Positions 36,098-55,555 of a stretch of DNA of 55,643 nt are shown one piece after another. The translations under genes were made by a program, and so were the position numbers. Numbering within the stretch: position 1 is the stretch's first letter; every line of letters starts with the position of its first letter. A model generated the notes under the pieces. It was not told where the DNA came from. It worked only from the letters and a program-made list of their open reading frames with translations, and ran no database searches. The DNA is from Candidatus Poribacteria bacterium (lineage in GTDB: Bacteria; Poribacteria; WGA-4E; B28-G17): the NCBI GenBank assembly GCA_021162805.1, contig JAGGXZ010000168.1, forward strand, positions 1 through 55,643, given 5' to 3'.

Positions 36098-37567
36098 CTA
36101 CCTCCTGATAGGCAGGATGATCTTGAAGGATGAGCCCATCCCAACCTTGCTTCTGAGTTCGATCTTGCCCCCATGAGCCTCGACGATCTGGAGCGTCAGC
36201 GACAGGCCAAGTCCCACGCCTCCCTCCCTCTCCTTCGTCGTGAAGTAGGCGTCGAAGATCCTGGGCTGGATCTCATCCGGTATCCCTATCCCTGTATCCC
36301 TTATCTCCACCACAGCCCTGTCCAGGAACTTGCCTTTCTCCAGCTTTGTAGTTATATAGATCTTGCCGCCTTTCGGCATCGCCTGGATGGCGTTCTGGAT
36401 CAGATTATATATGGCCTGTCGGATCTTGTCGGCATCCAGGGGCACCTCTTTGAGCTCTCCGCAGTATCTCCTGATGATTGAGATGCCCGCGCTGTTAAAG
36501 GCGGCGTTGAATTCCGATAGTACGTCGTCGGTGAGTGATTCCAGATCTGTAGGCTCGATTTGAAGCGACGGCGGACGATTGAGGGTGAGAAATTGATCAG
36601 TTATCTGGCTGAGCCTTTTGACCTGTTTGTCCATGATCTCCAGGCATTCCCGTGCCTCATCAAGATCCTCCTCCGATACCTCGTCGGATGAGATGATCGA
36701 TCTGAGGTATTGAACCGTCATGCTGATGGAGTTAAGCGGATTTCTTATCTCATGGGCCACACCGGAAGCCATTCTCCTTAGAGCTTCTATTCTCTCCCTA
36801 TGAGCCACCTTTATCTGCCGGATCATGTCCGCCAATCTGGAGCTCACCCTGCCGATTTCACCCTTTGATCGGGAGACAACGAGGAAGTTCAGATCCCCCT
36901 CATCGGCCCTCTGGATTATCTCAACGAGGTTTTCAAGCGGCCGAATCACCATCCGTCCCGTGAGGAGGCTAATCAGGAACGCGAGGGAGATGCTGGTTGC
37001 CAGGACATATATCATGTGTATAAGCCTAAGCTCCCAGAGATAACTCGCCACATCCGGGGCGTCGAAGAGGATTTGGATGAGACCGTTTTCGATCACTATG
37101 TTGGAGTTATCCTCGAACCGAGCCGATCTGGGGTATGTGATGATCGCCTCGGTCACCCATCTGTCATGGTACCGCGCAAGCCTGTAGATCCGTATTCTCC
37201 CCCGAGATATCCTCTCATATCCCTCCCTGTCTATGTTAACCATATTTCCTATCTCCCACCCCTTCAAGCTCGCTACGATCTTCCCGTTTTCATCCGTCAC
37301 GTTGACGTCAACGATTTGATCCTCAACGCCCATCTCCTTAACGACGCCTCTGAGCTCCCTCTCTATCATCTTAGGATCGGAGAGATCCTGTACGGTCGTC
37401 TTCAGCACGTCGGCTATATCGCGGATCAATATCCCACGGGAGATATCTCTCATCTGTCCCTCGATCCGGTCCCTTCTGAGTTTTATATCATCTATGACGA
37501 AGAAGAAGGCCATAAAGGTTATTATGAAGAGGTTTATTATGAGGGTGTATTTCCATTGCAGCCGCAT
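36098..37567 (-). CDS. Membrane sensor histidine kinase (HAMP, HisKA, HATPase_c)
   Basis: 489 residues from the ATG at 37567; an upstream ATG at 37600 overlaps glpK more and gives a longer basic N-terminus. TM1 is about residues 8-26, a periplasmic domain of about 160 residues follows, TM2 is near LIHMIYVLATSISLAFLISLL. A HAMP domain leads to the phospho-acceptor His in GVAHEIRNPLNSI, then the N box NLIQNAIQAM, G1 DTGIGIP and G2 GGVGLGLSL. No response regulator lies nearby, so it is an orphan in this window. It overlaps the glpK 3' end by about 30 bases. Confidence 0.88.
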   Translation of the reverse strand: MRLQWKYTLIINLFIITFMAFFFVIDDIKLRRDRIEGQMRDISRGILIRDIADVLKTTVQDLSDPKMIERELRGVVKEMGVEDQIVDVNVTDENGKIVASLKGWEIGNMVNIDREGYERISRGRIRIYRLARYHDRWVTEAIITYPRSARFEDNSNIVIENGLIQILFDAPDVASYLWELRLIHMIYVLATSISLAFLISLLTGRMVIRPLENLVEIIQRADEGDLNFLVVSRSKGEIGRVSSRLADMIRQIKVAHRERIEALRRMASGVAHEIRNPLNSISMTVQYLRSIISSDEVSEEDLDEARECLEIMDKQVKRLSQITDQFLTLNRPPSLQIEPTDLESLTDDVLSEFNAAFNSAGISIIRRYCGELKEVPLDADKIRQAIYNLIQNAIQAMPKGGKIYITTKLEKGKFLDRAVVEIRDTGIGIPDEIQPRIFDAYFTTKEREGGVGLGLSLTLQIVEAHGGKIELRSKVGMGSSFKIILPIRR

Positions 37568-39024
37568 CTGGTCAACACTCTCCCGACAGCTTCCTTCCAT
37601 TTCCTCCTCAATAGGATCCGCCTTTCATCCTCCATCTGAGGGGTGAACGTTCTGTTGACCTTACGAAGAGATCGGATCCGGTCTAGATCCCACATATCGA
37701 TGCTTAACCCGGCGAGGTAGGCTGCTCCTAAAGAGGTGGTCTCTCTATATTTGGATCGTTCCACGGGCAGGTTCAGGATATCCGATTGAAACTGCATAAG
37801 GAAATCATTGACCGATCCGCCGCCGTCAACCCGCAGAGCAGAGATTTTCATTCCGGAATCCCTCTCCATCGCTTCCATGACGTCGGCCACCTGATGTGCT
37901 ATCGCCTCGAGCGTCGCTCTGACGATATGTTCCTTTCTGGTTCCCCGTGTGATCCCCAGGATAGCTCCCCTCGCCCGGCTGTCCCAGTAAGGCGCTCCGA
38001 GGCCGGTGAAGGCCGGAACGACATACACCCCGCCTGTATCCTCCACGCTTAAAGCCATCTCTTCGCTTTGGGCTGCCGATTCGATTATCCCTAAACCGTC
38101 CCTTAACCACTGCACCGCCGCTCCGGCGATAAATACGCTTCCCTCAAGGGCATATCTGGGCCTCTCCGTGACGGAACAGGCCAAGGTGGTAAGGAGCCCT
38201 TCATTTGAGTAAACGGGCTTTTCGCCGGTCTGCATCATCAGAAAACAGCCCGTGCCATAGGTGTTTTTGGTCTCTCCCCTCTCAAAACAGGCCTGGCCGA
38301 AGAGGGATGCCTGCTGGTCGCCGGCAACGCCGCATATCGGGATGCCCTCGATCTCGCTCGGCTCCTGAGCCACGCCGTAACGCGCCGAAGAAGGCAGCAC
38401 CTCAGGAAGTCTGACGGCGCCCACATTGAAGATCCCTATCAGCTCTTCGTCCCATTTCAGCTCGTGGATGTTGAAGAGCATCGTTCGCGAGGCGTTGGTC
38501 TGATCGGTGGCGTGTGTTCTGCCGCCCGTCATCCTCCATATAAGCCAGGAGTCCACCGTCCCGAAGAGGATCTCCCCCTCAGGCTTGACGTCCCGGATGA
38601 TCCAGGCGAGCTTGGTCGCGGAGAAATAAGGATCGAGGATAAGCCCTGTCTTATCTCTGACCTTCTCCTCAAGCCCCTTCTCCCTCAATTGATCGCACAT
38701 ATCCGCGGTTCGTCTGCACTGCCAGACTATGGCGTTGTGGACGGGTCTGCCGGTTTCAGCCTCCCAGACGATCGTCGTCTCACGTTGATTGGTGATCCCT
38801 ATCGCCTTTATCTGTGAGGAGGAGACCTGTGATCGGGAGAGCAACTTACGAATGAGCCCCGCCGTCGAGCGCCAGATCTCCTCCGGGTCATGTTCCACCC
38901 AACCCGGTCTCGGGTAGATCTGTCTCAGTTCGGCATAGACCGATTCGGCAACTTCCCCTTCCTCATTCACAAGAAGAACGGTCGTCCCCGTTGTCCCTTG
39001 ATCTATGGCGAGAACGTAATCCAT
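37537..39024 (-). CDS. glpK: Glycerol kinase
   Basis: 495 residues from the ATG at 39024, chosen because GAGG precedes it and the ADYVLAIDQGTTGTT-type FGGY start follows immediately; the in-frame ATG at 39078 is in the repeat-derived leader. Marks include VWQCRRTADMCD, TDQTNASRTMLFNI, CGVAGDQQASLFGQACF and the C-terminal FGGY motif around LRVDGGGSVNDFLMQFQ. Phosphorylates glycerol to glycerol 3-phosphate. No glpF or glpD is adjacent. Its own promoter sits in the end of the UPF0210 gene. Confidence 0.93.
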   Translation of the reverse strand: MDYVLAIDQGTTGTTVLLVNEEGEVAESVYAELRQIYPRPGWVEHDPEEIWRSTAGLIRKLLSRSQVSSSQIKAIGITNQRETTIVWEAETGRPVHNAIVWQCRRTADMCDQLREKGLEEKVRDKTGLILDPYFSATKLAWIIRDVKPEGEILFGTVDSWLIWRMTGGRTHATDQTNASRTMLFNIHELKWDEELIGIFNVGAVRLPEVLPSSARYGVAQEPSEIEGIPICGVAGDQQASLFGQACFERGETKNTYGTGCFLMMQTGEKPVYSNEGLLTTLACSVTERPRYALEGSVFIAGAAVQWLRDGLGIIESAAQSEEMALSVEDTGGVYVVPAFTGLGAPYWDSRARGAILGITRGTRKEHIVRATLEAIAHQVADVMEAMERDSGMKISALRVDGGGSVNDFLMQFQSDILNLPVERSKYRETTSLGAAYLAGLSIDMWDLDRIRSLRKVNRTFTPQMEDERRILLRRKWKEAVGRVLTRCGCNGNTPS

Positions 39025-39044: not shown

Positions 39045-39175
39045 TTTTACCACACCATCTCACCACCTGCAAGCTCATCTTTCAGATGTATTTTACACTC
39101 AATTTTGAAGGCTGGTCAACGGAGCCGGAATCCGTCCGCCATGTCGAACGAATCGTCGATTGCATCCGATGTTGC
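39045..39175. repeat. 131-bp duplicated segment, copy A (partner at 50724-50854)
   Basis: Two differences only (G/A at 39069, C/T at 39112) relative to the second copy, at a constant offset of 11679 bases. This copy holds the last 25 codons of the UPF0210 gene plus the glpK leader and promoter, so it is the original. Confidence 0.85.
39090..39119 (-). promoter_or_regulatory. Promoter of glpK inside the repeat
   Basis: TTGACC (39119-39114), 18-base spacer, TAAAAT (39095-39090) on the minus strand. The -35 is formed by the Leu-Thr codons of the UPF0210 gene's C-terminus. Confidence 0.6.
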
Positions 39176-40472
39176 ATATCTCCATCACAACGCTTTCCCC
39201 GAAAAGCCCTCCGAACACGACTCGTTCCCCCGCCTTCTTTTCAGGGACCGGTATGATCCTCACTGCGGTTGTCTTATGGTTGATGACCCCTATCGCCAGT
39301 TCATCAGCTATCAGTGCGGCGATCGTTTCCGCGTCCACATCGCCTGGAACGACGACCATATCCAGACCCACTGAACAGACGCTGCTCATCGCCTCCAGCT
39401 TTTCTATCGTCAGATAACCCGCTTCGACGGCGGCTGAGAGACCGATATCCTCCGAGACCGGTATAAAAGCGCCGGAAAGGCCGCCAACTGATGAGGATGC
39501 GAAAAGCCCGCCCTTTTTGACGGCATCGGTCAGGAGCGCCAATGCGGCTGTTGATCCTGGAGCTCCCACCGCCCTGATACCCATTGCCTGTAAAACCTCG
39601 CCCACGCTATCTCCGACCTTCGGGCTCGGCGCAAGCGATAGATCGACGATGCCGAACTTGGCTCCGATCATTCCGGCGAGCTCTCTCCCGATCAACTCGC
39701 CTATTCGTGTCAGCCTGAAGGCGGTGGTTTTGATAATCTCAGCCATATCGCCTAACGTCAGATCGGGTTTCATCTCCCTTCCCTTTTCGATCGCTCCTTT
39801 TACCACTCCCGGGCCGCTGATGCCGATGTTGATAACGCATTCCGCCTCGCCGATGCCGTTGAACGCTCCCGCCATGAAGGGATTATCTTCAGGCGCGTTT
39901 GCGAAAACGACGAATTTAGCGCATCCGAAGCCATCCCTCTCGCTGGTACGGCGGGAAAGCTCTATCAACATCTCACTCACAAGCAAGATGGCATCCATGT
40001 TGATTCCCGCCTTGGTTGAGGCGGCATTGACGGAAGCGCATACCCTTTCCGTCTCCGAGAGGGCGAACGGGATCGATCGTATCAGGCCCTCATCGTCCGG
40101 CGTCATCCCCTTATGCACTAAAGCGGTGTAGCCGCCTATCAGGTCAACCTTCACCTCACGTGCCGCCTCATCCAGAGCATGGGCTACTTGGATAAACCCC
40201 TCTTCACCGTGTCCTGCGGCGACTATGCTGATGGGCGTAACGGCCACCCTCCGGTTCACGATTGGGACGCCGTATTTCGCCGCCAGCGTCTCACAGGCCT
40301 CCCATAGCTTCCCCGCCCGATCTATAATCCGCCCGCGGATGCGCTCGCACAATTTATCTGTGCTCTCAGATCGGCAATCCAGCAGGCTGATCCCCATCGT
40401 TGCAGCTCGGATATCGAAGTTCTCCTCATGGATCATCCGTATCGTCGTCAGGATATCCTCACTTCTCACCAT
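39099..40472 (-). CDS. UPF0210/DUF711 (PFL-like family) protein
   Basis: 457 residues from the ATG at 40472, preceded by an ideal AGGAGGTGATACCG; the GTG at 40481 is weaker. Recognised by SEDILTTIRMIHEENFDIRAATMG, NPFMAGAFNGIGE (about 207-219), NIGISGPGVV and the C-terminal GGRIPAPLTSLQN. The family is conserved in bacteria and archaea, often next to an ACT protein (here 12 bases upstream), but its biochemical role is not established. Its final codons also form the -35 of the glpK promoter. Confidence 0.85.
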   Translation of the reverse strand: MVRSEDILTTIRMIHEENFDIRAATMGISLLDCRSESTDKLCERIRGRIIDRAGKLWEACETLAAKYGVPIVNRRVAVTPISIVAAGHGEEGFIQVAHALDEAAREVKVDLIGGYTALVHKGMTPDDEGLIRSIPFALSETERVCASVNAASTKAGINMDAILLVSEMLIELSRRTSERDGFGCAKFVVFANAPEDNPFMAGAFNGIGEAECVINIGISGPGVVKGAIEKGREMKPDLTLGDMAEIIKTTAFRLTRIGELIGRELAGMIGAKFGIVDLSLAPSPKVGDSVGEVLQAMGIRAVGAPGSTAALALLTDAVKKGGLFASSSVGGLSGAFIPVSEDIGLSAAVEAGYLTIEKLEAMSSVCSVGLDMVVVPGDVDAETIAALIADELAIGVINHKTTAVRIIPVPEKKAGERVVFGGLFGESVVMEICNIGCNRRFVRHGGRIPAPLTSLQN

Positions 40473-40484
40473 CGGTATCACCTC

Positions 40485-41045
40485 CTAAATCACGGCGAGC
40501 GATCGCAGGTCATGCGTCGCCTTGAATAGATTCTCGTGTTGGAAGTGAGCTGACATGCCGAAGGAACGCCCCAGCCTTTCAAGCTCCTCTTTCAGCCCTC
40601 GCGGATCAAGCTCCGGAGGAACGGAGAGCTCAAGCACCATCGTAAAACCTCCCTCCTCAGTCCTGCCGTAGAGATCGGTGATGTTGATGCCGAGGGAGGC
40701 GAGATAGGTGGACATATGGTATATAACCCCCGGTCGATCTAGTCCGAACAGGGTAAGTATGAAACGATCATATGTGGTTGGCGTGGCGCTTAGAGGTTCA
40801 TCCGTTCTCCTTATGCGCACGGCGACCTCCAACTCTCCGGGAGCACCTGTGGACGCGATCACCTCCTTCACTCTCTCCACCGGAGGCGAAGAGGAGAAGG
40901 TGGCACAGAGTATAACGGTGAAGTATCCTCGAACAACCGTCTGGCTGATCTCCTCTATATTGCCTCCCATCTCAAAGACGGCCCTACCGATGCCGGCGAT
41001 GATGCCCGGCCGATCGCGCGACATGACGGTTATGATGTATTCCAT
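40485..41045 (-). CDS. ACT-domain protein (UPF0237/GcvR-like)
   Basis: 186 residues from the ATG at 41045 (GTG at 41060 is possible). Two ACT-like modules are visible: EYIITVMSRDRPGIIAGIGRAV (1-23) and ILTLFGLDRPGVIYHMSTYLA (about 93-113). ACT domains bind amino acids and regulate enzymes or transcription. The constant pairing with UPF0210 genes suggests a joint function. Good promoter 32 bases upstream. Confidence 0.8.
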   Translation of the reverse strand: MEYIITVMSRDRPGIIAGIGRAVFEMGGNIEEISQTVVRGYFTVILCATFSSSPPVERVKEVIASTGAPGELEVAVRIRRTDEPLSATPTTYDRFILTLFGLDRPGVIYHMSTYLASLGINITDLYGRTEEGGFTMVLELSVPPELDPRGLKEELERLGRSFGMSAHFQHENLFKATHDLRSLAVI

Positions 41046-41076
41046 CCTCTCCCACCTCACCGGGGAACTGATTTAC

Positions 41077-41105
41077 ATGATACTATATCGACGTCATACG
41101 GTCAA
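41077..41105 (-). promoter_or_regulatory. Promoter of the ACT-UPF0210 operon
   Basis: TTGACC (41105-41100), 17-base spacer, TATCAT (41082-41077) on the minus strand. Divergent from the Nudix promoter. Confidence 0.6.
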
Positions 41106-41142
41106 ATCACCGGGCTGCCCGCTCGACGACAGCGCTTATTAC

Positions 41143-41171
41143 TTGATTCCCTCCATTTCCTCTGCTAAAAT
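41143..41171 (+). promoter_or_regulatory. Promoter of the Nudix hydrolase gene
   Basis: TTGATT (41143-41148), 17-base spacer, TAAAAT (41166-41171). The ATG at 41213 then has a leader of about 35 bases, which supports that start over the ORF start at 41180. Confidence 0.5.
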
Positions 41172-41212
41172 ATCCCTGTTTGAATAATGTTGTCGTTTGC
41201 GAGGGTGTTTTG

Positions 41213-41794
41213 ATGTCGAAGAGAAAGGTCGAGGTGCTCGAAAGCGATCTGGTCTATGATGGGTTTTTCAAGATTGAGAGAGCCCTTGTGCAATATGAAC
41301 GGTACGACGGATCGATGAGCGAGCCGATAACCCGATACTGTTTCGAGCGGGGGGATTCCGTGGGCGTGCTGCTTTACAATCCCGACGCCGATTCCGTCAT
41401 CCTGGTGGAGCAGTTCAGATACCCGGCGTATGTGAAGGGAGGGCCGGGATGGATCTTAGAGATCGTGGCGGGCGTTAAGGATAAGGAGGATTCCGTCAAA
41501 GTCGCGAGATCGGAGGCGATCGAGGAGGCGGGATATGAGATCGAGAGGTTGGAAAAGCTCACCTCCTTCTACCTCTCACCCGGCGGCAGTTCCGAGAGAA
41601 TGGATCTGTATCTGGGATATGTATCCAAACCCTCCCATAAGGGCGGAGGAGTAAGGGAGGAGGGTGAAGATATCAAGGTCATTGAGCTTCCGCTGGAGAA
41701 AGCCTTGAGGATGATAGATAGAGGCGATATATGCGATGTTAAGACGATCCTAGCTCTGCTGTGGTTGTATAGGAAAAAGACGAAGGGGGAGTGA
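41213..41794 (+). CDS. Nudix hydrolase, ADP-ribose pyrophosphatase type
   Basis: 193 residues. The Nudix box is IVAGVKDKEDSVKVARSEAIEEAGYE (residues about 83-108), close to GX5EX7REUXEEXGU, but the first Glu is Asp and the canonical Arg is Ser with an Arg one place earlier, so it is slightly divergent. The catalytic EAIEEAG is intact. Downstream LTSFYLSPGGSSERM is typical of ADP-ribose/sugar-nucleotide pyrophosphatases. It starts at ATG 41213 with GAGGGTG upstream; the frame before that lacks a ribosome site. Confidence 0.85.
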   Translation: MSKRKVEVLESDLVYDGFFKIERALVQYERYDGSMSEPITRYCFERGDSVGVLLYNPDADSVILVEQFRYPAYVKGGPGWILEIVAGVKDKEDSVKVARSEAIEEAGYEIERLEKLTSFYLSPGGSSERMDLYLGYVSKPSHKGGGVREEGEDIKVIELPLEKALRMIDRGDICDVKTILALLWLYRKKTKGE

Positions 41795-41838
41795 TAGGAT
41801 GGCATATCTATCTGATCAAGGCTGATGTGAGGTGAAAT

Positions 41839-43026
41839 ATGCTTAGCTTTGTCGGGTATTTCACCCTTCTGCTCTCCTTCATCTACATGTCCGTGATCCT
41901 CTGCTTCAGAATAGGGCTTGGCAGGGCCGAGAGGATCTCGCGGAAGATGCTCAGAAGGCGTTCCGACCCGAAAGGTCGGCCCTTCGTCTCCGTGATCATA
42001 TCCGCCCGAAACGAGAGGGAACATATCGGCCGATGCCTCGAATCGCTCATAGAGCAGTCATATCCCTCACACCTCTATGAGATAGTGGCTGTCGATGATC
42101 GATCGGAGGACGAGACCCTCTCCATCATCCGATCATATGCCGATCGGTCGGACGTCAGGATCATTCCCCTTGAAAACGATGAGCCTGAAGGGTTAACCGG
42201 GAAGCAGACCGCCCTGGACAAGGCGATCCGATATAGCCGGGGGGAGATCATATTGACAACCGACGCCGACTGTATCGTTCCGTTCGATTGGGTCTCCGTT
42301 ATGACGAGCTTCTTCTCCGATCCTGAGGTCGGTGTGGTGGCCGGGTTCTCGACGATAGACGATAGATCCCCGGACTTCAGGAAGCTCGGAAGATGGAGGA
42401 GGTTGTTTTTGAAGATGCAATCCTTCGAGCTGTTGACGCTGTTTACGGCATTCGCCGGGGGAATGGGGCTGGGGTTGGCATTAGCCTGCACGGGGAATAA
42501 TCTGGCATACAGACGAAAGGTATATGAACAGATGGGCGGATTTAAGAGGATAGGTCGAACGGTCGCCGAGGATAACATGTTCATCCAGTGGGTCAACCGA
42601 AACACGTCGTGGAGGATAATCCCGTGCTGTTTAAGGGAGTCGCTGGTTATCACGATGCCTAAGGTAACCCTTCGTGATTTATTGGCCCAGAGGATCAGAT
42701 GGGCCTCCAATTCGCTTGAAAACAGGTTTTCCGCCCTGGCCTTTATGGTGGCCGTTTACGGTATGAACCTGCTGCTTTACCCAACTCTCCTCCTTAGCCT
42801 TGCCGGGGTGATCCCGATATGGATCGGTCCAACGGCGATCGCCATGAAATTCCTGCCTGAATACCTGCTGGTCTCCAAGGGTATGAGGATGTTCGGCAGA
42901 GGCGATCTCATGAAATTCTTCCTGCCCATTCAACCCTTTCACACCCTTTACATCCTGATATGCGGTCTCGCCGGCCTGCCGGGAAAGGCGAGATGGAAGG
43001 GAAGGGAGTACAAGGCGCGACGTTAA
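41839..43026 (+). CDS. Membrane glycosyltransferase family 2
   Basis: 395 residues. N-terminal membrane helix (about 3-26), GT-A domain with FVSVIISARNEREHIGRCLESL (about 49-70), VDDRSEDET (about 88-96), LTTDADCIVP (the DxD-type motif, about 139-148), acceptor-side AEDNMFIQW (about 240-250) and the QRIRWAS motif (about 281-287). Three membrane helices end the protein. Transfers sugars to a lipid or polymer at the inner membrane; substrate unknown. The gene is followed by repeat-rich DNA. Confidence 0.85.
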   Translation: MLSFVGYFTLLLSFIYMSVILCFRIGLGRAERISRKMLRRRSDPKGRPFVSVIISARNEREHIGRCLESLIEQSYPSHLYEIVAVDDRSEDETLSIIRSYADRSDVRIIPLENDEPEGLTGKQTALDKAIRYSRGEIILTTDADCIVPFDWVSVMTSFFSDPEVGVVAGFSTIDDRSPDFRKLGRWRRLFLKMQSFELLTLFTAFAGGMGLGLALACTGNNLAYRRKVYEQMGGFKRIGRTVAEDNMFIQWVNRNTSWRIIPCCLRESLVITMPKVTLRDLLAQRIRWASNSLENRFSALAFMVAVYGMNLLLYPTLLLSLAGVIPIWIGPTAIAMKFLPEYLLVSKGMRMFGRGDLMKFFLPIQPFHTLYILICGLAGLPGKARWKGREYKARR

Positions 43027-43033
43027 CCCCTTA

Positions 43034-43062
43034 CGCTCATATTATCGCTGAGTGTAGCGGAG
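43034..43062. repeat. 29-bp repeat, copy 1 (partner at 55518-55546)
   Basis: CGCTCATATT-A-TCG-C-TGAGTGTAGC-G-GAG here; the second copy differs at three positions (T, G and A). CTCA ... TGAG within it forms a short inverted repeat. Location after a stop codon is typical of an extragenic repeat. Confidence 0.5.
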
Positions 43063-43104
43063 GTTTTTAAAGCTACCGTCCGCCTCTCGGCTGTCCCGAT
43101 TATA

Positions 43105-43173
43105 GGTCATTTATTGTCATTTGTAGTCATTAATGACGGCGAAGCCGAATGACTTAATGACTATAAATGACGG
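43105..43173. repeat. GTCATTT-type palindromic element, copy 1
   Basis: A left arm of iterated GTCATTTRT(A/T) units meets a right arm (TTAATGACTATAAATGAC) across the centre GGCGAAGCC, giving an imperfect inverted repeat of about 67 bases. Related sequence occurs at 53559-53690. Confidence 0.6.
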
Positions 43174-43240
43174 TTGAGCTGTGGACGGCGGACAATTAGC
43201 CATAGGTACTGCACTCAAGGGGAATAAGAACAGCCCCTTA

Positions 43241-43269
43241 TTGACATAACCGAGGAAGTGAGATATCCT
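43241..43269 (+). promoter_or_regulatory. Promoter of the second NTase/HEPN pair
   Basis: Perfect TTGACA (43241-43246), 17-base spacer, TATCCT (43264-43269). The start codon is 19 bases after the -10, so the leader is very short. Confidence 0.55.
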
Positions 43270-43288
43270 ATTTTGCGGTGAGGAAGAG

Positions 43289-43795
43289 ATGGAGAGGAGA
43301 AAGGTTCAAGATGAGGTAAATCGACTCCTGCATAAGCTCGTAGAGGCGCTAAAGGAGAGGTTTGGTGAGGAACTGGTATCGGTGGTGCTGTTTGGCTCAT
43401 TTGCACGGGGGGATTTCCACGAGAGGTCTGACATCGACCTGTTGATAGTTATAGAGAAGCTCCCTCAATCGCAGTTTAAAAGATCGAGGCTTTTCGACGA
43501 AGCCGCGGGGAGGCTTATGGATGGATTCAAGCTTCTTCGTGAAATGGGCTATCTGTGTCAGTTTATGCCCATAATGAAAAGCAGGGAGGAGGCCGCTTAT
43601 CATTCGCCGATCTATCTTGACATGGTTGAGGAAGGGATGATCCTTTATGACAAAGGGGGGTTTTTCAGATCGGTGTTGGAGGAGATAAGGCAAAGGTTGA
43701 AAGAGCTGGGGGCGAAAAGGAAGTTCCTCAAAGGCGGGGGATGGTATTGGGACCTTAAACCGGACTATAGGCCCGGAGAGGTGATCGAAATATGA
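43289..43795 (+). CDS. Nucleotidyltransferase-domain protein of an NTase/HEPN pair
   Basis: 168 residues. GS-x10-D-x-D motif: GSFARGDFHERSDIDLL (about 36-52), the MNT fold. C-terminal region with a DKGGFFRSVLEEIRQRL helix. It overlaps the HEPN gene by 4 bases (ATGA). In these pairs the NTase can AMPylate the HEPN partner. GAGGAAGAG precedes the ATG. It is not closely similar to the MntA at 24.6 kb. Confidence 0.8.
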   Translation: MERRKVQDEVNRLLHKLVEALKERFGEELVSVVLFGSFARGDFHERSDIDLLIVIEKLPQSQFKRSRLFDEAAGRLMDGFKLLREMGYLCQFMPIMKSREEAAYHSPIYLDMVEEGMILYDKGGFFRSVLEEIRQRLKELGAKRKFLKGGGWYWDLKPDYRPGEVIEI

Positions 43796-44220
43796 GAAAC
43801 GACAGGATGGCGATCGGTTACCTCGAGGACGCCACCGTGAGGGTGGGGGAGTTGAAGCGGCTTTTCGAGATGAAGCGGTTTAATGTGGTGATCAGAGAAG
43901 CACAGGAAGGGGTTGAGCTGGCGCTCAAGGCGGCCTTGAGATGGGTGGGGGTGGAGCCTGCTAAAGTTCATGACGTGTCCGAGATACTGTTAGGGGAGCA
44001 GGATAGATTTCCCCGCTTTTTCAGGGATGAGATAGTCAGACTGGCGGAAATTTCCAGAAAGCTTGCCAGGGAGAGGGGAAGAAGCTTCTACGGCGATGAG
44101 GAGGGAGGGGTTCCCGCTTCTGAACTCTACTCGGACTCGGATGCCCTTGAGGCGATCGACGATGCCCAATTCGTGCTTCAGCTTTGTAGGGGACTTATCA
44201 GTTCAAAACCTGGCGGATAA
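43792..44220 (+). CDS. HEPN-domain protein partner
   Basis: 142 residues. A helical HEPN fold with EAQEGVELALKAALRWVG (about 38-55) and the tail ERGRSFYGDEE...PASELYSDSDALEAIDDAQF. The catalytic R-x4-6-H motif of RNase HEPN proteins is not visible, unlike HepT at 24.2 kb. That is usual for this subgroup, which may bind nucleotides or RNA without cleaving. Overlaps the NTase by 4 bases. Confidence 0.75.
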   Translation: MRNDRMAIGYLEDATVRVGELKRLFEMKRFNVVIREAQEGVELALKAALRWVGVEPAKVHDVSEILLGEQDRFPRFFRDEIVRLAEISRKLARERGRSFYGDEEGGVPASELYSDSDALEAIDDAQFVLQLCRGLISSKPGG

Positions 44221-44283
44221 TGTGATCATCAACCCTATTCGCTTTAACCTAAGAGCATACATCCATGGTAGGAGGTGAATGAG

Positions 44284-44976
44284 ATGAGGAAGATCTCAAG
44301 CGTTTCAGCTTTACTTATGTTATGGTGGCTGTGTTCGGTCTTCTGCACACAGACGAACGCCTTCACGGACGATTTCGAGGACAACAAGGACGATGGATGG
44401 GCACGGGTTGTGGGCGAGTGGGTTGTGAAGGATGGGAGATATCTCCAGGTTCAAGGCGGCGACCTCTGGCAGAGGGCGGTTCTCGATGAGATCAACGTTC
44501 GAAACGAGAAATTCCACCTGGTGGCGAAAGGCGGCCTAGTGAAAGGGACGCAGAACAACGGATGGGTCGGAGTCGTGTTCCTACACCAGGGCGTGGAGGA
44601 GGGCAAGGGCGGGTTCTACTCCTTCGCAGCCGTCTACGACGGAAGAAATATAGCTAGGCTGTTTAAATCCCCGTCCGGTAAATACCCGGATGTGGCATGG
44701 AAGAAAGACGCCCCTTTCACCCCGAAACCCGGTGAGGTTTATGAGTTCGTGGTGATCGTTGAGGGGAACGTCATAAAGTGCTTGATTAACGGAAAGGAGC
44801 TGATAAAAACGGAAGACCCCGAGATCTGGAAGGAGGGGAAGGTCGGACTTTTCTCGACGAATGCGGAGAGTTTCTTTGAGGAGATAACCGTCACAGGCCC
44901 GGGCATCCCAGAAGCGCAGGTCAACCCCGGCGGCAAAATGCCACTCACATGGGCTAGGATAAAGGGTGGAATTTGA
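44284..44976 (+). CDS. Exported LamG/3-keto-disaccharide hydrolase (DUF1080)-like protein
   Basis: 230 residues from the ATG at 44284 (GGAGGTGA is 6 bases upstream; a GTG at 44275 overlaps the site). Signal peptide MRKISSVSALLMLWWLCSVFC, mature FTDDFEDNKDDGWARVVGEWVVKDG and VYEFVVIVEGNVIKCLINGKELI, a jelly-roll beta-sandwich of the concanavalin type. It probably binds or cleaves a glycan outside the cytoplasm. The next gene, also secreted, is a glycosidase. Confidence 0.7.
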   Translation: MRKISSVSALLMLWWLCSVFCTQTNAFTDDFEDNKDDGWARVVGEWVVKDGRYLQVQGGDLWQRAVLDEINVRNEKFHLVAKGGLVKGTQNNGWVGVVFLHQGVEEGKGGFYSFAAVYDGRNIARLFKSPSGKYPDVAWKKDAPFTPKPGEVYEFVVIVEGNVIKCLINGKELIKTEDPEIWKEGKVGLFSTNAESFFEEITVTGPGIPEAQVNPGGKMPLTWARIKGGI

Positions 44977-45111
44977 ACTGGGTAACTTTGCGCCCTGTAA
45001 AACGATCATCATGGGTAAGATCGCTCCTGACCTTTCGGCCTGCGAAACGATGCCGGGGCCAGGCAGGGGCGAAGGGTCGGATGCCCCAATTTGCTTAAAT
45101 GGAGGGTGAAA

Positions 45112-46011
45112 ATGCTCAGCCTGGGCTTAATGCTTGCTATTGTGTTCGCTTTCGCTGGGAATATCGAGTTACCCCTTGAGGGCGTCTGGGTGGAGGACCC
45201 TGAGGGCAAGCCTGTAATAGACCGAGGCCCTGAGGGGGCGTGGGATCACGTTGCGGTGGATAACCCATTCATCTATATCGAGGACGGAGTGTTCTACTGT
45301 TTCTACGAAGGGGAGAACGAACGACGTCAGGAGCAAGTTGGCATCGCCGTATCCACCGACCTGTTGCGCTGGAGAAAATATGAGGAGAACCCCGTGTTAA
45401 AAGTCGGCCCTCCAGGCGCCTGGGATAGCCTGGCCGCTAAGATCCCCGTCGTCGCCAGAAACAAGGAGACGTATTTCCTGCTTTACACCGGGAAGGACGG
45501 AAAAGGGGCGGCCATAGGGGTGGCAAGATCAAACGATCTCCGCCATTGGGAGAAATACCCCGGCAACCCGGTTCTACCCGGCCGACAGGGGAAGTGGGAC
45601 CCCATTTTGACCACCTCTCCCTCCCTGATCGAAAGGGATGGGGTGTTCTATATGATCTACCGAGGGATGAAAGGGTTTTACACGGATCAGAAGCTGGGGC
45701 TGGCCATATCGAGGGATCTCCTCCACTGGAATCGGCGAGATAAACCCCTCAAGGGGCTTGACGATATCTATTCCTTCGCTATCTGCCCGTGGTTGATAAA
45801 CGGCGAGTATATGGCTTTAGCCCAAAAGCTGCCTCCGAAACACGTCTACCTCTCAGCCGATCTGATCTCTTGGCGGAGGGGACCTGTTCTCACCTTCTCC
45901 GCCGGAAAGATCGACACCCCATCCCAGCCTATCCTGATAGACGGCGTTCTATGGATTCTTTATGAGAAGGGTGATAGGATTTACCGTGCTCGGTTCGAGC
46001 CAAGGCCTTAG
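45112..46011 (+). CDS. Five-bladed beta-propeller glycoside hydrolase (GH43/GH130-like)
   Basis: 299 residues from the ATG at 45112 with GGAGGGTGAAA before it. N-terminal signal-like segment (LGLMLAIVFAFAG), then repeated blades with DNPFIYIEDGVFYCFYEG, VARSNDLRHWEKY..., SLIERDGVFYMIYRG and SQPILIDGVLWILYEKG, a pattern shared by GH43, GH32/68 and GH130 proteins. The catalytic acids cannot be assigned by eye. Convergent with the GH13 module gene at 46031. Confidence 0.75.
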   Translation: MLSLGLMLAIVFAFAGNIELPLEGVWVEDPEGKPVIDRGPEGAWDHVAVDNPFIYIEDGVFYCFYEGENERRQEQVGIAVSTDLLRWRKYEENPVLKVGPPGAWDSLAAKIPVVARNKETYFLLYTGKDGKGAAIGVARSNDLRHWEKYPGNPVLPGRQGKWDPILTTSPSLIERDGVFYMIYRGMKGFYTDQKLGLAISRDLLHWNRRDKPLKGLDDIYSFAICPWLINGEYMALAQKLPPKHVYLSADLISWRRGPVLTFSAGKIDTPSQPILIDGVLWILYEKGDRIYRARFEPRP

Positions 46012-46030
46012 CTGATCCTATGTTCCTCCT

Positions 46031-46909
46031 CTACCCGCTGAGCGATTCCTCGGCGTCCATATCGGGATCGGCGTGTTTGCCCTGTGGATGGGGGATTACC
46101 ACCCTGGCGATCCCCCTCTCGCTTGCCGAGCAGGAAGAGCTGATACGTAGGGCGGAGACGCTTGAGAGATGTGGGATTCCCTTCCCCACCTTGAGTGAGA
46201 ACCTGACGCTATACTTCCCGCCTTTTATCAGCGGAGAGGAGACGCCGTCCATGAAACAGAGGAAGAAACCCCTCCCGTGGATCACTACCCTCTGCGGCGG
46301 CGTGGGCGTTTCCCAGTTGATCCCATCAATCAAGAGATGTGCTCCTTTTTGAGTCATGAACAGGACGACCGGTCTCCTGAAATCGAGGAACCCCGAAAAA
46401 TCCCTCACCTGCCCATCGCCTCTCTCCTGACAGAGCCAGCCGTCGGCGGAACTTATGAGCCATTCGGAAAGCGAAGAGATCGCCCAGCAGAGCGATAGAA
46501 ACGCCCTCACATCCTCGACGCCGAAGTTCGGAACGAGCTCACAGGAGACCCGAACCTCCGGCGATTCATCGAAGATAAACTCCGCCCTGTAAGCGACGCT
46601 CCTCTCAAGCGGCGAGGGCTTGAGACGACCTTTTGAGAGGATCTTAACGCCCCTCCCTTCCTGACTGACAAAGACCTCCGGATCAGAACCCCTCGAGCCC
46701 ACGTAACGCCTCCTCTCGTAAATACCGTAATCGGTGTATGCGTTCATGTTCTCGATCAGAGCTTCGCCCGTCCCTTTGAAGAGGAGCTTTGAGATCATCC
46801 CGTTTACCCTTGAGATCAGCACCGCATAATGGTCGTTTTCAACCCTCCACCCTTCGGGAACCTCGGTTAGTTGAAGGGCGAAGAGCGCTAACGTCAGCAT
46901 CAGGATCAT
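46031..46909 (-). CDS. Exported beta-sandwich protein, paralogue of the GH13 protein's C-terminal module
   Basis: 292 residues. Signal peptide (MILMLTLALFALQLTEV), then the run YAVLISRVNGMISKLLFKGTGEALIENMNAYTDYGIYE, which matches LRLVIGRSRGGNLRSLVHKGTGRALAITSNIYTDYGIYG of the upstream protein. Later, ESPEVRVSCELVPNFGVEDVRAFL matches SPGVEVRCGVKPSIWRSDVRAFL. It overlaps the GH13 gene by 4 bases (ATGA) and so is coupled to it. Function unknown, possibly carbohydrate binding. Confidence 0.7.
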   Translation of the reverse strand: MILMLTLALFALQLTEVPEGWRVENDHYAVLISRVNGMISKLLFKGTGEALIENMNAYTDYGIYERRRYVGSRGSDPEVFVSQEGRGVKILSKGRLKPSPLERSVAYRAEFIFDESPEVRVSCELVPNFGVEDVRAFLSLCWAISSLSEWLISSADGWLCQERGDGQVRDFSGFLDFRRPVVLFMTQKGAHLLIDGINWETPTPPQRVVIHGRGFFLCFMDGVSSPLIKGGKYSVRFSLKVGKGIPHLSSVSALRISSSCSASERGIARVVIPHPQGKHADPDMDAEESLSG

Positions 46910-49900
46910 CTTCCCTCCCCTCCCGATCGCTTAAAATGACGCTCGATGACTTCCAACCTGTAACCTATGAGATCCCATTCGGGACGGACCTCCACGGGGA
47001 GACCGTCCAGGAAAGCGAAGAAGACCGTAGCCGTGCCGGATCTGTCCTGATGGACGAAGATATTCTGAGGTTTTCGCCCTCGCCATCGTATTTCGTCGAA
47101 CCTCAGGATGAGCCCGCCCTCGACCTCGATCTCGATGGAACCTCCCTCTCTGAGGGGAACCTCCTTCGACTGCCAGAGCCTGCCGACCCGTTCTCCGAAC
47201 ACCCCTTCTTTCACCCCTCCCTCCGTCTCAGCACGCCACCTTCGGGCATCGGGGATACGCACGATGTGAGCGAGGAAAGCCCTGACGTCGCTCCTCCAGA
47301 TCGAAGGTTTCACCCCACACCTCACCTCAACGCCCGGGGAACGGTCGAACACATATGTCAACTTGTAGCCCAGTAGAGGTCTTGCGACGTTCGCCCAACC
47401 CCAGAAGGAGAGCCGGAGGTAGCTCCGGAAACTCAGCTCAACCCCTCCTTTCGACCTCAAGATCACATCCGGCTCGAAATCATGGAAGCTATTGGCGCTG
47501 ACCCGCACCTCCCTCCCCAGCGAATCCCTCACCGACCCGTAGATCCCGTAATCGGTGTAGATGTTCGAGGTTATCGCCAAGGCTCGACCCGTCCCCTTAT
47601 GGACCAAAGACCTCAGATTCCCTCCCCGGCTCCTCCCGATGACGAGCCTGAGATCGCCGTTCTCAAACTTCCAGTTCGGTCCGTCGAACTCGACCGAAAC
47701 GGGCCCGCACCGCCAGACCCTCCTCTCGATGGAGGGGAGTGGTTTATCAACGGAGAGCGAGAGCGATACGCCGAAAGGTCTACCCTGACCGAACCTCACG
47801 GGCTCCCCCTCGGGAAGAAGGGCGGCGAAAAACGTGAACCCCTTCTCACCATCGGAGTTGAACTCCCTCACGAACACGTTGTTTTCAGGATATCTCTTGA
47901 AAGCCAGGGTGAGCGTCCCCTCGCCTTTGATGAGGTGGATCGCCGGGAGCTCGGGGTTGAGCGGGTGGAGCCTGTGTTCCCATAGCCTCCCGCTAGGATG
48001 CCAGTATCTCCGCCCTTGGAACTCACGGTTCAGGGCGTAACGGGGGCTGAAAAGCCCTTCGATCTTCCCCTCGACCGTCTCCACATCCCATTCCTCGACC
48101 ATCCCCGAACGTATCTCGAAGAGCAACGACGTCAAAACCGGAGGAGTGGAGAACTCCGGGGTGAGCTGAAGCTCAAGCTTCACCTCAGGGGAGCGGTCGC
48201 AGGTGTAAATGGCTTTCCACCTCATCCCTCTCCCGTCGGGAAACCTCGGGCATCGCCCCTCGAAGACTACTTCCACGGCTCCGTCGAGCTCCCTCCGCTT
48301 GATGCGCACGTCGGCCGATTCCGACAGCTTCAGCCTTCTCCCGAGCCATATCTTCCGATCGCCCTCCGTCAGATCCATCCCCTCGATGAGCGCCACGTTC
48401 GAACCCTCGGGGAGGAGCCTTTCGATAAGCCCGTTTCTGAGGAGTAGCTTGTAATGTCCGTTTCTGATCACAACCCTCCCATCGCCCAGCTCCTCCACCT
48501 CCGGGGCGGAGGAGATTTTCTCCGGAGCTCCCCTCGACCTTCGCCTGGGAGCTATGGCGGGGAAAGGTATCCCTTCCGGTCTTGCGACGACCAGTCTGGG
48601 CTCGAAAGGCGGGATGTCGAGCGATATTTTGAGCGTCTCCTCCGCTTTTACCTCGCCCAGGATCTGCCCTTCAAACGCCTCAAGCAGCTTATATCTTCCC
48701 GCCTTCGCACCGATCTCCCGAAGCGGCACGGTGATCTCCGTCCCCTTCCGTTCGGATGCGAAGTTTATGGCGACTACCGTAAAGCCTTCATCCAGCTTGC
48801 GCACGAAGGACATGACCTCGGGGGTGGTCGATTTTGCAGCGAGATAAAAAGCATCGCCCCGGGCCAGCTCGGGGATCTCACACCTGACGTTTAAAACCCG
48901 CCCTAAGAACCGCTCAAACCCCACCTCCTGTTCGTGGAAGAGGAACGGCACCCCCTGAACGAAGGCGCAGAGGGAAAACAGGGCTTTCATGGGCCCGACG
49001 CCATAGTAGCGGACGGACTTATATTTGTCGTGGTTTTCGAGCATCCGCATCATCCCGAAGGTCGCGCCTCGGGGAAACGTCAACCGTTGAACCTCCAACC
49101 ACCTGAGCGTCTCCCTCACCCATCTTCGCCTCGGCATCTCGGTGAAGGAACGCAGCACCGTGAAGGAGAAGGGCCAGTCGTAGACGAAGTCGCAGACCGA
49201 GAGGAAAAGAGGCGAGCCGACCTCACCGAGTATACCGCTTTCGGGGTCAATCTTTTTCATCTCCCCTCTCACCAGTTTGAGCATCCGTAGCGCCCCGAAC
49301 ATCCCCGACTGCGACGGTCTCAAACCCCTCTGCGGACTCCAGTTCGCCGGTCCACCTCCGGCGCAATCGACCCTATACCCGTCCACGCCGCACTCCCTCA
49401 TCCAGTAGGTCACAACGTCCGCCATGTAACGCTGCCAGCCGGGATGGGCGTAGTCGCACGAGAGACACCCCCACCAGTAGAGGATGGAGCCGTCCTCCTT
49501 TCTCGAAACCCAATCGGGGTGTTTCTCCAGGATCTCCCTTCCGGCGGGCGAGTTCTCCGGAGGACCGTGCGGGATGAGGTCGAGGAAGATGTGTATCCCC
49601 CGTTTATGCGCCTCATCGCAGAGGAGCCTGAGCTCCTCCTTCGTCCCGGCGTGAGGGTCTAAAGCGTAATAATCCCTCGGGGCATACCCTCCCGGCCAGC
49701 AGGGGTTGAACCAGACGACCCCCACCCCCATGCGATCCAGGGTGGGCAGAAGTAAACGGGCGAAGTTGCGAAAACCTCCGAGGTCCTTAAGTCCGGAATC
49801 TATGCTCCCCTGGGCGAAGAGCGAGTAGATCGAGGTTCCCCACGCCCAACCCGGTCTCTCGACGGTCTTAAACCCCGAAAGCTCGTAGACCTCCCGTGCG

Positions 49901-50655
49901 CCTTCCAACACCTCCTTCAAACTCCCGCTCTTCAGCAGGATGAACTGGTCTCCGATCTCCATCTCCCCGCCTCTCCCGAGCTTACAGAAAGCGGGAAGGG
50001 TGTGGTGAACGTTCAGGAACCCCTCTTCCTCCTCGGCGGCGACCAGGAACGGTTCCGTCTCGGTGTAGAAACCGACGAGGAGCCCGATTCTTTTCGTTTC
50101 GTTGTAAACAACGGCCGCCGGCGTCCCCGCCCAGATGCCAGCCGAGCGGGTCCGTCCCGGAGAAAGCTCACCGAACTTGAACTTCCCCGGAGGCCACAGG
50201 GGCGGTAAAGTATAGAAGCAATCCGCAAGGGGTTCGATCGCCGCGCCGAAGAGTGAGAACCTGATCGAGTTGACCTTCGCCTCCCCTTCGCCGACGAACC
50301 TTAAGGTCGCCCTCCGCCTCGCCCAAGCCCCTTCATGCGGGATCACATAGACCGTCTCGACCTCCCAGTTACCTCTCAAGAGGCGGAGGGTGAGCTTCTT
50401 CCCCTCGTCCGTATCCTCCCTCCGAAGATCCGAGAGCCTGAGTTTCCCCTTCGGATCGGAGAAGACCCACTCCCCGTTGACCTTCACGTTGACGGGAGGT
50501 CCCGTTCCCCCTGCGACCTTGATGTTAGCTTTAAGATCGCGAACCTCGATGAGGGCGCCGGTGGTGGGATCGAACCCCAAGGAGATCTCTCCGTTGGTCA
50601 GCAACGCCGGCTCACCGGCTGTCAGGAGGAGAGCCGAGATTATCATCCATATCAT
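46906..50655 (-). CDS. Large GH13 alpha-amylase-family protein with repeated beta-sandwich modules
   Basis: 1249 residues, exported (MIWMIISALLLTAGEPA). N-terminal beta-sandwich (about 20-250), GH13 (alpha/beta)8 barrel (about 265-630) with region I FLDLIPHG (357-364), region II VDGYRVD (nucleophile D430), region III GILGEVG (acid/base E478) and region IV ENHD (540-543). Then two modules (about 725-975 and 985-1249) that resemble each other and the neighbouring 292-residue protein. Acts on an alpha-glucan or related sugar; specificity unknown. Its promoter appears to be a duplicated copy of the glpK one. Confidence 0.85.
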   Translation of the reverse strand: MIWMIISALLLTAGEPALLTNGEISLGFDPTTGALIEVRDLKANIKVAGGTGPPVNVKVNGEWVFSDPKGKLRLSDLRREDTDEGKKLTLRLLRGNWEVETVYVIPHEGAWARRRATLRFVGEGEAKVNSIRFSLFGAAIEPLADCFYTLPPLWPPGKFKFGELSPGRTRSAGIWAGTPAAVVYNETKRIGLLVGFYTETEPFLVAAEEEEGFLNVHHTLPAFCKLGRGGEMEIGDQFILLKSGSLKEVLEGAREVYELSGFKTVERPGWAWGTSIYSLFAQGSIDSGLKDLGGFRNFARLLLPTLDRMGVGVVWFNPCWPGGYAPRDYYALDPHAGTKEELRLLCDEAHKRGIHIFLDLIPHGPPENSPAGREILEKHPDWVSRKEDGSILYWWGCLSCDYAHPGWQRYMADVVTYWMRECGVDGYRVDCAGGGPANWSPQRGLRPSQSGMFGALRMLKLVRGEMKKIDPESGILGEVGSPLFLSVCDFVYDWPFSFTVLRSFTEMPRRRWVRETLRWLEVQRLTFPRGATFGMMRMLENHDKYKSVRYYGVGPMKALFSLCAFVQGVPFLFHEQEVGFERFLGRVLNVRCEIPELARGDAFYLAAKSTTPEVMSFVRKLDEGFTVVAINFASERKGTEITVPLREIGAKAGRYKLLEAFEGQILGEVKAEETLKISLDIPPFEPRLVVARPEGIPFPAIAPRRRSRGAPEKISSAPEVEELGDGRVVIRNGHYKLLLRNGLIERLLPEGSNVALIEGMDLTEGDRKIWLGRRLKLSESADVRIKRRELDGAVEVVFEGRCPRFPDGRGMRWKAIYTCDRSPEVKLELQLTPEFSTPPVLTSLLFEIRSGMVEEWDVETVEGKIEGLFSPRYALNREFQGRRYWHPSGRLWEHRLHPLNPELPAIHLIKGEGTLTLAFKRYPENNVFVREFNSDGEKGFTFFAALLPEGEPVRFGQGRPFGVSLSLSVDKPLPSIERRVWRCGPVSVEFDGPNWKFENGDLRLVIGRSRGGNLRSLVHKGTGRALAITSNIYTDYGIYGSVRDSLGREVRVSANSFHDFEPDVILRSKGGVELSFRSYLRLSFWGWANVARPLLGYKLTYVFDRSPGVEVRCGVKPSIWRSDVRAFLAHIVRIPDARRWRAETEGGVKEGVFGERVGRLWQSKEVPLREGGSIEIEVEGGLILRFDEIRWRGRKPQNIFVHQDRSGTATVFFAFLDGLPVEVRPEWDLIGYRLEVIERHFKRSGGEGR

Positions 50656-50723
50656 CTAGCACCTCCCGGTTCTGGATCTCCTTGATCCCTCCCGCTGTCG
50701 ATGACGGAGATTGTTACATCCAT

Positions 50724-50854
50724 TTTTACCACACCATCTCACCACCTACAAGCTCATCTTTCAGATGTATTTTACACTCAATTTTGAAGGTTGGTCAACG
50801 GAGCCGGAATCCGTCCGCCATGTCGAACGAATCGTCGATTGCATCCGATGTTGC
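50724..50854. repeat. 131-bp duplicated segment, copy B
   Basis: Second copy of 39045-39175, 98.5% identical. Here the UPF0210 gene end has no function, since the upstream coding region is missing; the copied promoter faces the GH13 gene. Confidence 0.85.
50769..50798 (-). promoter_or_regulatory. Duplicated promoter driving the GH13 operon
   Basis: TTGACC (50798-50793), 18-base spacer, TAAAAT (50774-50769). The GH13 ATG is at 50655, about 108 bases downstream, giving a leader of roughly 107 bases. Confidence 0.55.
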
Positions 50855-51120
50855 GAGGTAGCTGGAGTATTGGAGAAAAGGTATCTATGAACGTTCGATT
50901 GCCTTGCAGGAATCTTTCCCCATCAGGTGATACCCGTAAATAACATCCATCTTACCGTTGAGATCTTCAACAGTATATCCGCCGGGCCGGTATTATCGAG
51001 GGCTCATTTGGTGGAGTAGCCCTTCCATCGCTATCGCCGTTGAAAATCACAACATTCCTCCCTAGACGCAAGATCCATAAAAACCCAGATTTTATAGGGA
51101 TTCGAGGGCATCTCATTCTT
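50855..51120. other. 266-base region without a recognised gene
   Basis: No protein or RNA motif identified. It may hold control sequences for the pilin gene, such as enhancer-binding-protein sites expected upstream of a sigma-54 promoter. Confidence 0.35.
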
Positions 51121-51135
51121 TGGCACCCTCCTTGC
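51121..51135 (+). promoter_or_regulatory. Sigma-54 (RpoN) -24/-12 promoter of the pilin gene
   Basis: TGGCAC (51121-51126), 5 bases, TTGC (51132-51135): the GG-N10-GC spacing of sigma-54 promoters is exact. The pilin ATG is 45 bases downstream of the -12. An ATP-dependent activator would be needed; none is encoded in this window. Confidence 0.65.
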
Positions 51136-51179: not shown

Positions 51180-51398
51180 ATGAGGGCCGGAGAGATCTTC
51201 AGGAAATTGGTTGAGGATGAGAGAGGGCAATCGATACCGGAATATGCCCTTTTGCTGACCCTTATAGGCGGCGCGGCTGTGGGAGTTTCACAGCTTTCAG
51301 ATCAGATCAAGGAGATATTCAATCAGGCAACGGCTATATTCCAGCAGATAGCCGAGACTCTGAAGGAAAACAGTGCTAATTTAAAGATTAATCCGTAA
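51180..51398 (+). CDS. Flp/Fap-type pilin subunit
   Basis: 72 residues. The start EDERGQSIPEYALLLTLIGGAAVGV matches Flp pilins (prepilin cleavage after Gly of the G-Q-S-I-P-E-Y type site, then a hydrophobic helix). GGGAGGGAACG precedes the ATG. Flp pili are assembled by a tad locus, which is not in the window. The sigma-54 promoter upstream fits pilin regulation in other bacteria. Confidence 0.8.
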   Translation: MRAGEIFRKLVEDERGQSIPEYALLLTLIGGAAVGVSQLSDQIKEIFNQATAIFQQIAETLKENSANLKINP

Positions 51399-51415: not shown

Positions 51416-51742
51416 ATGGCAATGAGAGACGGAAAGGGGTTGGGTTTGAGGGAGCTCATAATGATCCTGTTTCTCTTCCTCATTTTGACAATACTGATAG
51501 GATATCCCAGATTAAGCGGTATGATCATGAATCTTTCGGGGATCGGGTTAGGCTTTTCCCTGCTCTATATCGGATATCGCTTGGAGAACCTCCTCAGGGG
51601 TTCTCGCGAGGTTGATAGCTCGGATGAAGGTCTCGTTTCTGATAACACGCATGATATCGCTTATCAGGTCAAGCCAGGGCACATTAGAGCTCTGGGGAAC
51701 AAGAACCATGATTATCAGGTGAACAGGCTTCCCATCGGGTGA
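51416..51742 (+). CDS. Small membrane protein after the pilin, unknown
   Basis: 108 residues. The first 60 (REL IMILFLFLILTILIG, then SGIGLGFSLLYIGYRL) hold two likely membrane helices and look real. The C-terminal 48 codons are antisense to the EIIA gene (51548-52144) and their composition is not protein-like. AAGGTGGTG precedes the ATG. Either the true gene is short (to about 51600) or the overlap is genuine. Confidence 0.4.
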   Translation: MAMRDGKGLGLRELIMILFLFLILTILIGYPRLSGMIMNLSGIGLGFSLLYIGYRLENLLRGSREVDSSDEGLVSDNTHDIAYQVKPGHIRALGNKNHDYQVNRLPIG

Positions 51743-52144
51743 CTCGAAGTCAACCCCTTTCCTGGACCGCCCTATCATAACGATCGGGAAATCCACCAGA
51801 TTTGTCCGACAATGAGGTAGGGCTACCCCATGTCCTATGGCGGTGCTTTCCAACCCTTCCCTGTTTAACAGATTTTGGAACAGACGGATCTTGAGGAAGG
51901 AATGATCGATCCCCTCCAACATATCGAGCATCTCCTTGAGAGCGCCCACTTTATCCCGTGACTTTATGTCAAGACATATCAGATCCTTACGTATGACATT
52001 AGAAAGCATAACCTCTGCTCGGAACATACCGATATCGAGATGAAGGTTTAACCTTAGGCTAAGCAATTTGCGTGCCATCTTATTAACCCAGGGAAATCGG
52101 GCCTTTTCAGGATGAGGGGGAGAGCTAAGATGCAAATTTTGCAC
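51548..52144 (-). CDS. PTS EIIA domain protein, second copy
   Basis: 198 residues from a GTG at 52144 with GAGGGAG 5 bases upstream. The EIIA domain runs from about residue 46 with the active His in GHGVALPHCRT (H111); the first 45 residues are an extension without a clear domain. Its start overlaps the stop of the lipoprotein gene by one base. It is about as long as PtsN-like regulatory EIIA proteins plus the extension. It lacks the antiporter context of the first copy. Confidence 0.7.
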   Translation of the reverse strand: MQNLHLSSPPHPEKARFPWVNKMARKLLSLRLNLHLDIGMFRAEVMLSNVIRKDLICLDIKSRDKVGALKEMLDMLEGIDHSFLKIRLFQNLLNREGLESTAIGHGVALPHCRTNLVDFPIVMIGRSRKGVDFESPDGKPVHLIIMVLVPQSSNVPWLDLISDIMRVIRNETFIRAINLARTPEEVLQAISDIEQGKA

Positions 52145-55456: not shown

Positions 55457-55517
55457 ATCTCCTCATCCTCCCATAGGAAGATGTTGCACCCGAATTTAAA
55501 CTCATGCTTGATCTGGT

Positions 55518-55546
55518 CGCTCATATTTTCGGTGAGTGTAGCAGAG
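55518..55546. repeat. 29-bp repeat, copy 2
   Basis: Partner of 43034-43062, three differences; again in non-coding DNA. Confidence 0.5.
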
Positions 55547-55555
55547 AGCTGATTT

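Follow-up and report, generated by a model that had tools for sequence, protein, structure and literature searches.

A 131-bp repeat carrying a gene end and a predicted promoter in front of both glpK and a GH13 gene in a Candidatus Poribacteria genome

The window (the whole stretch of DNA that we analyzed, 55,643 nucleotides and a single contig of the draft genome) contains two minus-strand neighborhoods that share a short piece of DNA (Table 1). In the first, a UPF0210 gene is followed by glpK, whose conserved start, judged from its homologues, is at 39024 and not at the longest-ORF start of 39078. The UPF0210 protein has its nearest relatives in Candidatus Poribacteria metagenome-assembled genomes (MAGs), on which the assignment of the host to this group rests; the closest is 81% identical (B28_G17, scaffold name Guay17) and the next 63%. 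Because in this nearest relative the gene after UPF0210 is tRNA-nucleotidyltransferase-like (named by eye) and glpK lies elsewhere, behind a different gene, the UPF0210–glpK neighborhood is not conserved.

The second neighborhood is built around a long GH13 gene, which is intact and has a good ribosome-binding site. The GH13 domain aligns to a solved α-amylase, 4gkl, over 280 residues, with the catalytic motifs GYRVD, GEV and ENHD at the expected places, and in the relatives searched and the genome collection the protein had no close homologue, only distant domain matches. The product of the smaller gene that overlaps its end is paralogous to the C-terminal region of the GH13 protein, and the two genes likely form one operon.

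Table 1. Features of the two neighborhoods and of the repeat that they share
Feature	Position	Strand	Details
glpK, glycerol kinase	37537..39024	-	TIGR01311, 677 bits against a cut-off of 590; downstream of copy A
Copy A of 131-bp repeat	39045..39175	-	Last 24 codons of UPF0210, stop codon and 54 bp of intergenic DNA; source copy
Sigma-70-like promoter (predicted), copy A	39090..39119	-	TTGACC-18-TAAAAT, 10/12; -35 in UPF0210 codons, -10 past the stop
UPF0210 / DUF711 gene	39099..40481	-	PF05167 (E=3e-176), NF003700; intact; 3′ end within copy A
GH13 companion, 292 aa	46031..46909	-	33% identical to GH13 residues 994-1219; 4-base overlap with GH13 gene
GH13 alpha-amylase-domain protein, 1249 aa	46906..50655	-	Signal-peptide-like start; GYRVD, GEV, ENHD; GGGAGGTG ahead of the ATG; lies downstream of copy B
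Gap between copy B and GH13 gene, 68 bp	50656..50723	-	Includes the ribosome-binding site of the GH13 gene; a short ORF (MDVTISVIDSGRDQGDPEPGGAR) overlaps its ATG; not homologous to the glpK leader
Copy B of 131-bp repeat	50724..50854	-	129/131 identical to copy A; upstream of GH13 gene; derived copy
Sigma-70-like promoter (predicted), copy B	50769..50798	-	Hexamers identical to copy A; one spacer change

Compared base by base, the two copies of the repeat agree at 129 of 131 bases, exactly the two differences that a first-pass annotation of this DNA had reported, and repeat finding reproduced their borders. They are direct repeats, in the same orientation and 11.7 kb apart. One mismatch (39112/50791, G versus A on the minus strand) falls within the spacer of the predicted promoter, and the other (39069/50748, C versus T) falls within the leader. 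On both sides the identity ends abruptly: alignments of the flanks scored no better than shuffles and revealed no homology outside the repeat. The ORF encoding MDVTISVIDSG after copy B, which slightly resembles the start of GlpK, was considered as homology running past the repeat and was rejected, its alignment likewise being no better than shuffles. A match over such a length cannot be chance. Copies A and B are the sole two occurrences of the repeat in the genome (4,345,805 bases in 232 contigs), and when it was sought in related genomes, a check that the first-pass annotation had proposed, none of the 39 relatives searched carried the sequence.

The direction of copying can be read from the coding content of the two copies. 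Copy A encodes the C terminus of an intact gene, with a RIPAPxxSxxN motif that is conserved in about 80 UPF0210 homologues, which read like GGRIPAPIHSLKN at this end; what had been counted as the last 25 codons are 24 sense codons plus the stop, followed by 54 bp. Copy B holds the same codons with no gene in front of them, as had been noted, in a frame that is open for at most 57 codons, and one of its two differences from copy A replaces Ser with Asn at a mostly conserved residue, Ser being usual in the homologues. Because the conserved C terminus of an intact gene is encoded in copy A, whereas copy B has no gene and carries the Ser-to-Asn change, the evidence supports copy A as the source and copy B as the derivative. 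The event is recent compared with the divergence of this genome from its nearest sampled relative, since the copies have diverged by only 1.5% while the UPF0210 proteins of the two genomes are 81% identical. The earlier claim that a gene end and promoter were copied recently from A to B is therefore upheld in both its direction and its age. An empty site, meaning a GH13 locus lacking the repeat, was sought in the relatives, and none was found there.

The motif TTGACC-N18-TAAAAT, previously read in both copies, is present in each on the minus strand. In copy A the -35 hexamer lies inside the UPF0210 codons for Pro-Leu-Thr-Ser and the -10 hexamer follows the stop codon; in copy B the predicted promoter points at the GH13 gene. 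We scanned 861 kb of this genome, including the window, for sites matching the sigma-70 consensus at 10 or more of 12 positions, defining upstream DNA as the 200 bases before each gene and approximating gene starts by ORF calls. Upstream regions contained 76 such sites in the sense orientation (in 53.9 kb, or 1.41 per kb) and 18 in the antisense orientation (0.41 per kb), compared with 83 in 1494 kb of coding DNA with both strands counted (0.056 per kb), and reversing the upstream sequences left 12 sites versus the 76 plus 18 real ones. The density of such sites upstream of genes, counted in the right orientation, is about 25 times that within genes. By these backgrounds, any given upstream site in the sense orientation is probably a real promoter (about 70–90%), and this enrichment makes the glpK promoter in copy A credible and gives the promoter annotated in the repeat statistical support in this genome.

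The predicted site matches the consensus at five of six positions in each hexamer and has an 18-bp spacer, which counts against the explanation that we favor below; the optimal sigma-70 spacer in E. coli is 17. With transcription predicted to begin near 39083 and 50762, the leaders would measure about 59 nt for glpK, whose start is at 39024, and about 107 nt for the GH13 gene, whose start is at 50655. Folding of the leaders gave z-scores of 0.46 and -0.05, indicating no structured RNA, and the leaders had no Rfam match. As a candidate operator we considered a palindrome, CATCTnnnAGATG, which each copy carries where its transcript would probably begin; with 8 occurrences in 861 kb versus 0–6 for palindromes of the same composition, it was not convincing.

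We favor an explanation in which 131 bp comprising the UPF0210 end and the glpK promoter would have been copied once, recently and in the same orientation from A to B, most likely by nonhomologous (illegitimate, short-patch) recombination. The copy would have brought a ready sigma-70-type promoter, from which a transcript would run through a leader of about 107 nt into the secreted GH13 gene, which copy B probably drives, and on into the 292-aa companion. Taken as a whole, we regard this account as moderately probable, with the recombination mechanism, the transcription from copy B and any selective benefit being parts of it that we infer. Because it occurs just twice and shows neither inverted ends nor a visible target duplication, the repeat does not look like an element of its own. 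Its likeliest origin, and the simplest one, is a single copying event by illegitimate recombination. Short dispersed duplication is not unique in this genome, as illustrated by two other two-copy repeats in the genome sample (279 bp at 98% identity and 236 bp at 94%), both of them open reading frames. The A/B pair is the only one with both copies on a single contig and, of those tested, the only one with a 10/12 promoter site.

The most serious competitor, which we consider possible but doubtful, accepts the illegitimate recombination and denies it any consequence: copy B would be neutral debris, and the GH13 gene would be silent or transcribed from another promoter. The absence of changes from the hexamers has little power to argue otherwise, because the hexamers occupy only 12 of the 131 positions and both changes would miss them with a probability of about 0.83 even without selection; neutral drift would give the same result equally well, and from a single case selection cannot be separated from drift. 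Also compatible with neutral debris are the other short repeats in the genome sample that occur in two copies and lack promoter sites, and two weak 9/12 sites further upstream of the GH13 gene, at 50999 and 51116. Weighing against it are the orientation and distance of the site in copy B, which fit the GH13 gene, and the frequency of upstream sense-orientation sites of such quality, which is several times above background.

Far less probable is an artefact of assembly or binning, in which one copy or a junction was made by the assembler, as a draft MAG in 232 contigs might lead one to suspect. The copies are told apart by two differences, and no exact run that they share exceeds 63 bp, which is below the k-mers usual for such assemblies; repeated overlaps of about 127 bp between contig ends in this MAG hint at a k near 127. 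The two copies should therefore have formed two distinct paths in the reads, which makes collapse or false duplication of the repeat unlikely and leaves flank swapping as the only possible error of this kind. Gene 3′ ends frequently serve integrases as attachment sites, which leaves direct repeats, and the genome has MITE-like families, but a small mobile element or the attachment site of an integrative element is hardly credible here, because the repeat lacks the terminal inverted repeats, target duplication and multiple copies of a MITE or insertion element (and is absent from all 39 relatives), no recombinase or transposase was found among the tested genes between the copies, and the body of UPF0210 is enclosed by the two copies instead of lying outside them, the wrong side for an attachment site.

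Short-patch double illegitimate recombination, which Harms and colleagues are said to have described in 2016, reportedly copies a short intragenomic template into an unrelated site. The A/B pair resembles it in both template and site, with 131 bp being at the long end for such events. Regulatory switching reportedly proceeds mainly by transfer between strains at corresponding sites, unlike the copying proposed here, which would have occurred within one genome and at an unrelated site. What such switching through noncoding DNA transfer (Oren et al., 2014, as cited in PMC11111574) has in common with our case is that upstream regulatory DNA is exchanged or gained without the gene itself.

Two further precedents are closer. 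Putative mobile promoters and their propagation in prokaryotes (Matus-Garcia, Nijveen and van Passel, 2012, as cited in PMC8049555 and PMC11111574) involve, so far as those citing papers describe them, a near-identical short promoter-bearing stretch before nonhomologous genes of one genome. At least two near-identical copies are found here (129/131, in two places), the downstream genes are nonhomologous (glpK belonging to FGGY, the other gene to GH13), and the predicted 10/12 site is of a class strongly enriched upstream of genes; unlike the published description, however, there are only two copies, the unit includes a gene 3′ end, and no family-like propagation is seen. Promoter capture, which according to the account of Li and Bock (2019) in PMC11111574 can come about through illegitimate recombination or a tandem duplication, shares with our case, as we read it, the acquisition of a pre-existing promoter by a gene across junctions without homology, but here the copy is a dispersed 131 bp, neither a tandem duplication nor a deletion. 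The A/B pair thus fits promoter propagation or capture as a new two-copy case and a plausible example, with activity of copy B predicted. Accepted views are unchanged by it, but clear natural cases in which an intact promoter was recently copied to an unrelated gene are of use, since the sequence itself shows source, copy and direction, and if copy B is active, a secreted α-glucan-type enzyme would be under the promoter of glycerol kinase in an uncultured phylum. A wider claim, that an active short-patch mechanism supplies secreted glycosidases of this Poribacteria lineage with new promoters through repeated copying of gene-end-plus-promoter units, strikes us as quite improbable; if true, it would make repeated unit copying a route of regulatory innovation.

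Several other features of the window and genome deserve mention. Beyond copy B, and divergent from the GH13 gene, a consensus-like sigma-54 motif, TGGCACCCTCCTTGC, lies on the plus strand at 51121-51135, about 45 bp ahead of a small ORF at 51180-51398, whose 72-aa product looks Flp-pilin-like by eye and has no Pfam or NCBIfam match, and a PTS EIIA-type gene is present at 51548-52144. Between the copies, at 43034-43229 on the plus strand, is a 196-bp intergenic MITE-like element that, used as a query, gave 60 full and partial matches across the genome, mostly at 73-94% identity; its ends resemble TCGCTCATATTATCG..AGTGTAGCGG and an imperfect inverted counterpart, and a related end occurs at 55517-55552. 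Two further multicopy families of short repeats, of about 127 and 90 bp, are found mostly at contig ends (L137, L138, L181, L188; L124, L132, L141, L174, L179), a location suggesting that they broke the assembly. A gene pair encoding a nucleotidyltransferase-domain and a HEPN-domain protein, in a toxin-antitoxin-like arrangement, occupies 43289-44220 on the plus strand. Finally, two neighboring minus-strand genes (28251-29609 and 31327-32820) look like paralogues, as repeats of 129 and 50 nt recur between them at 76-77% identity.
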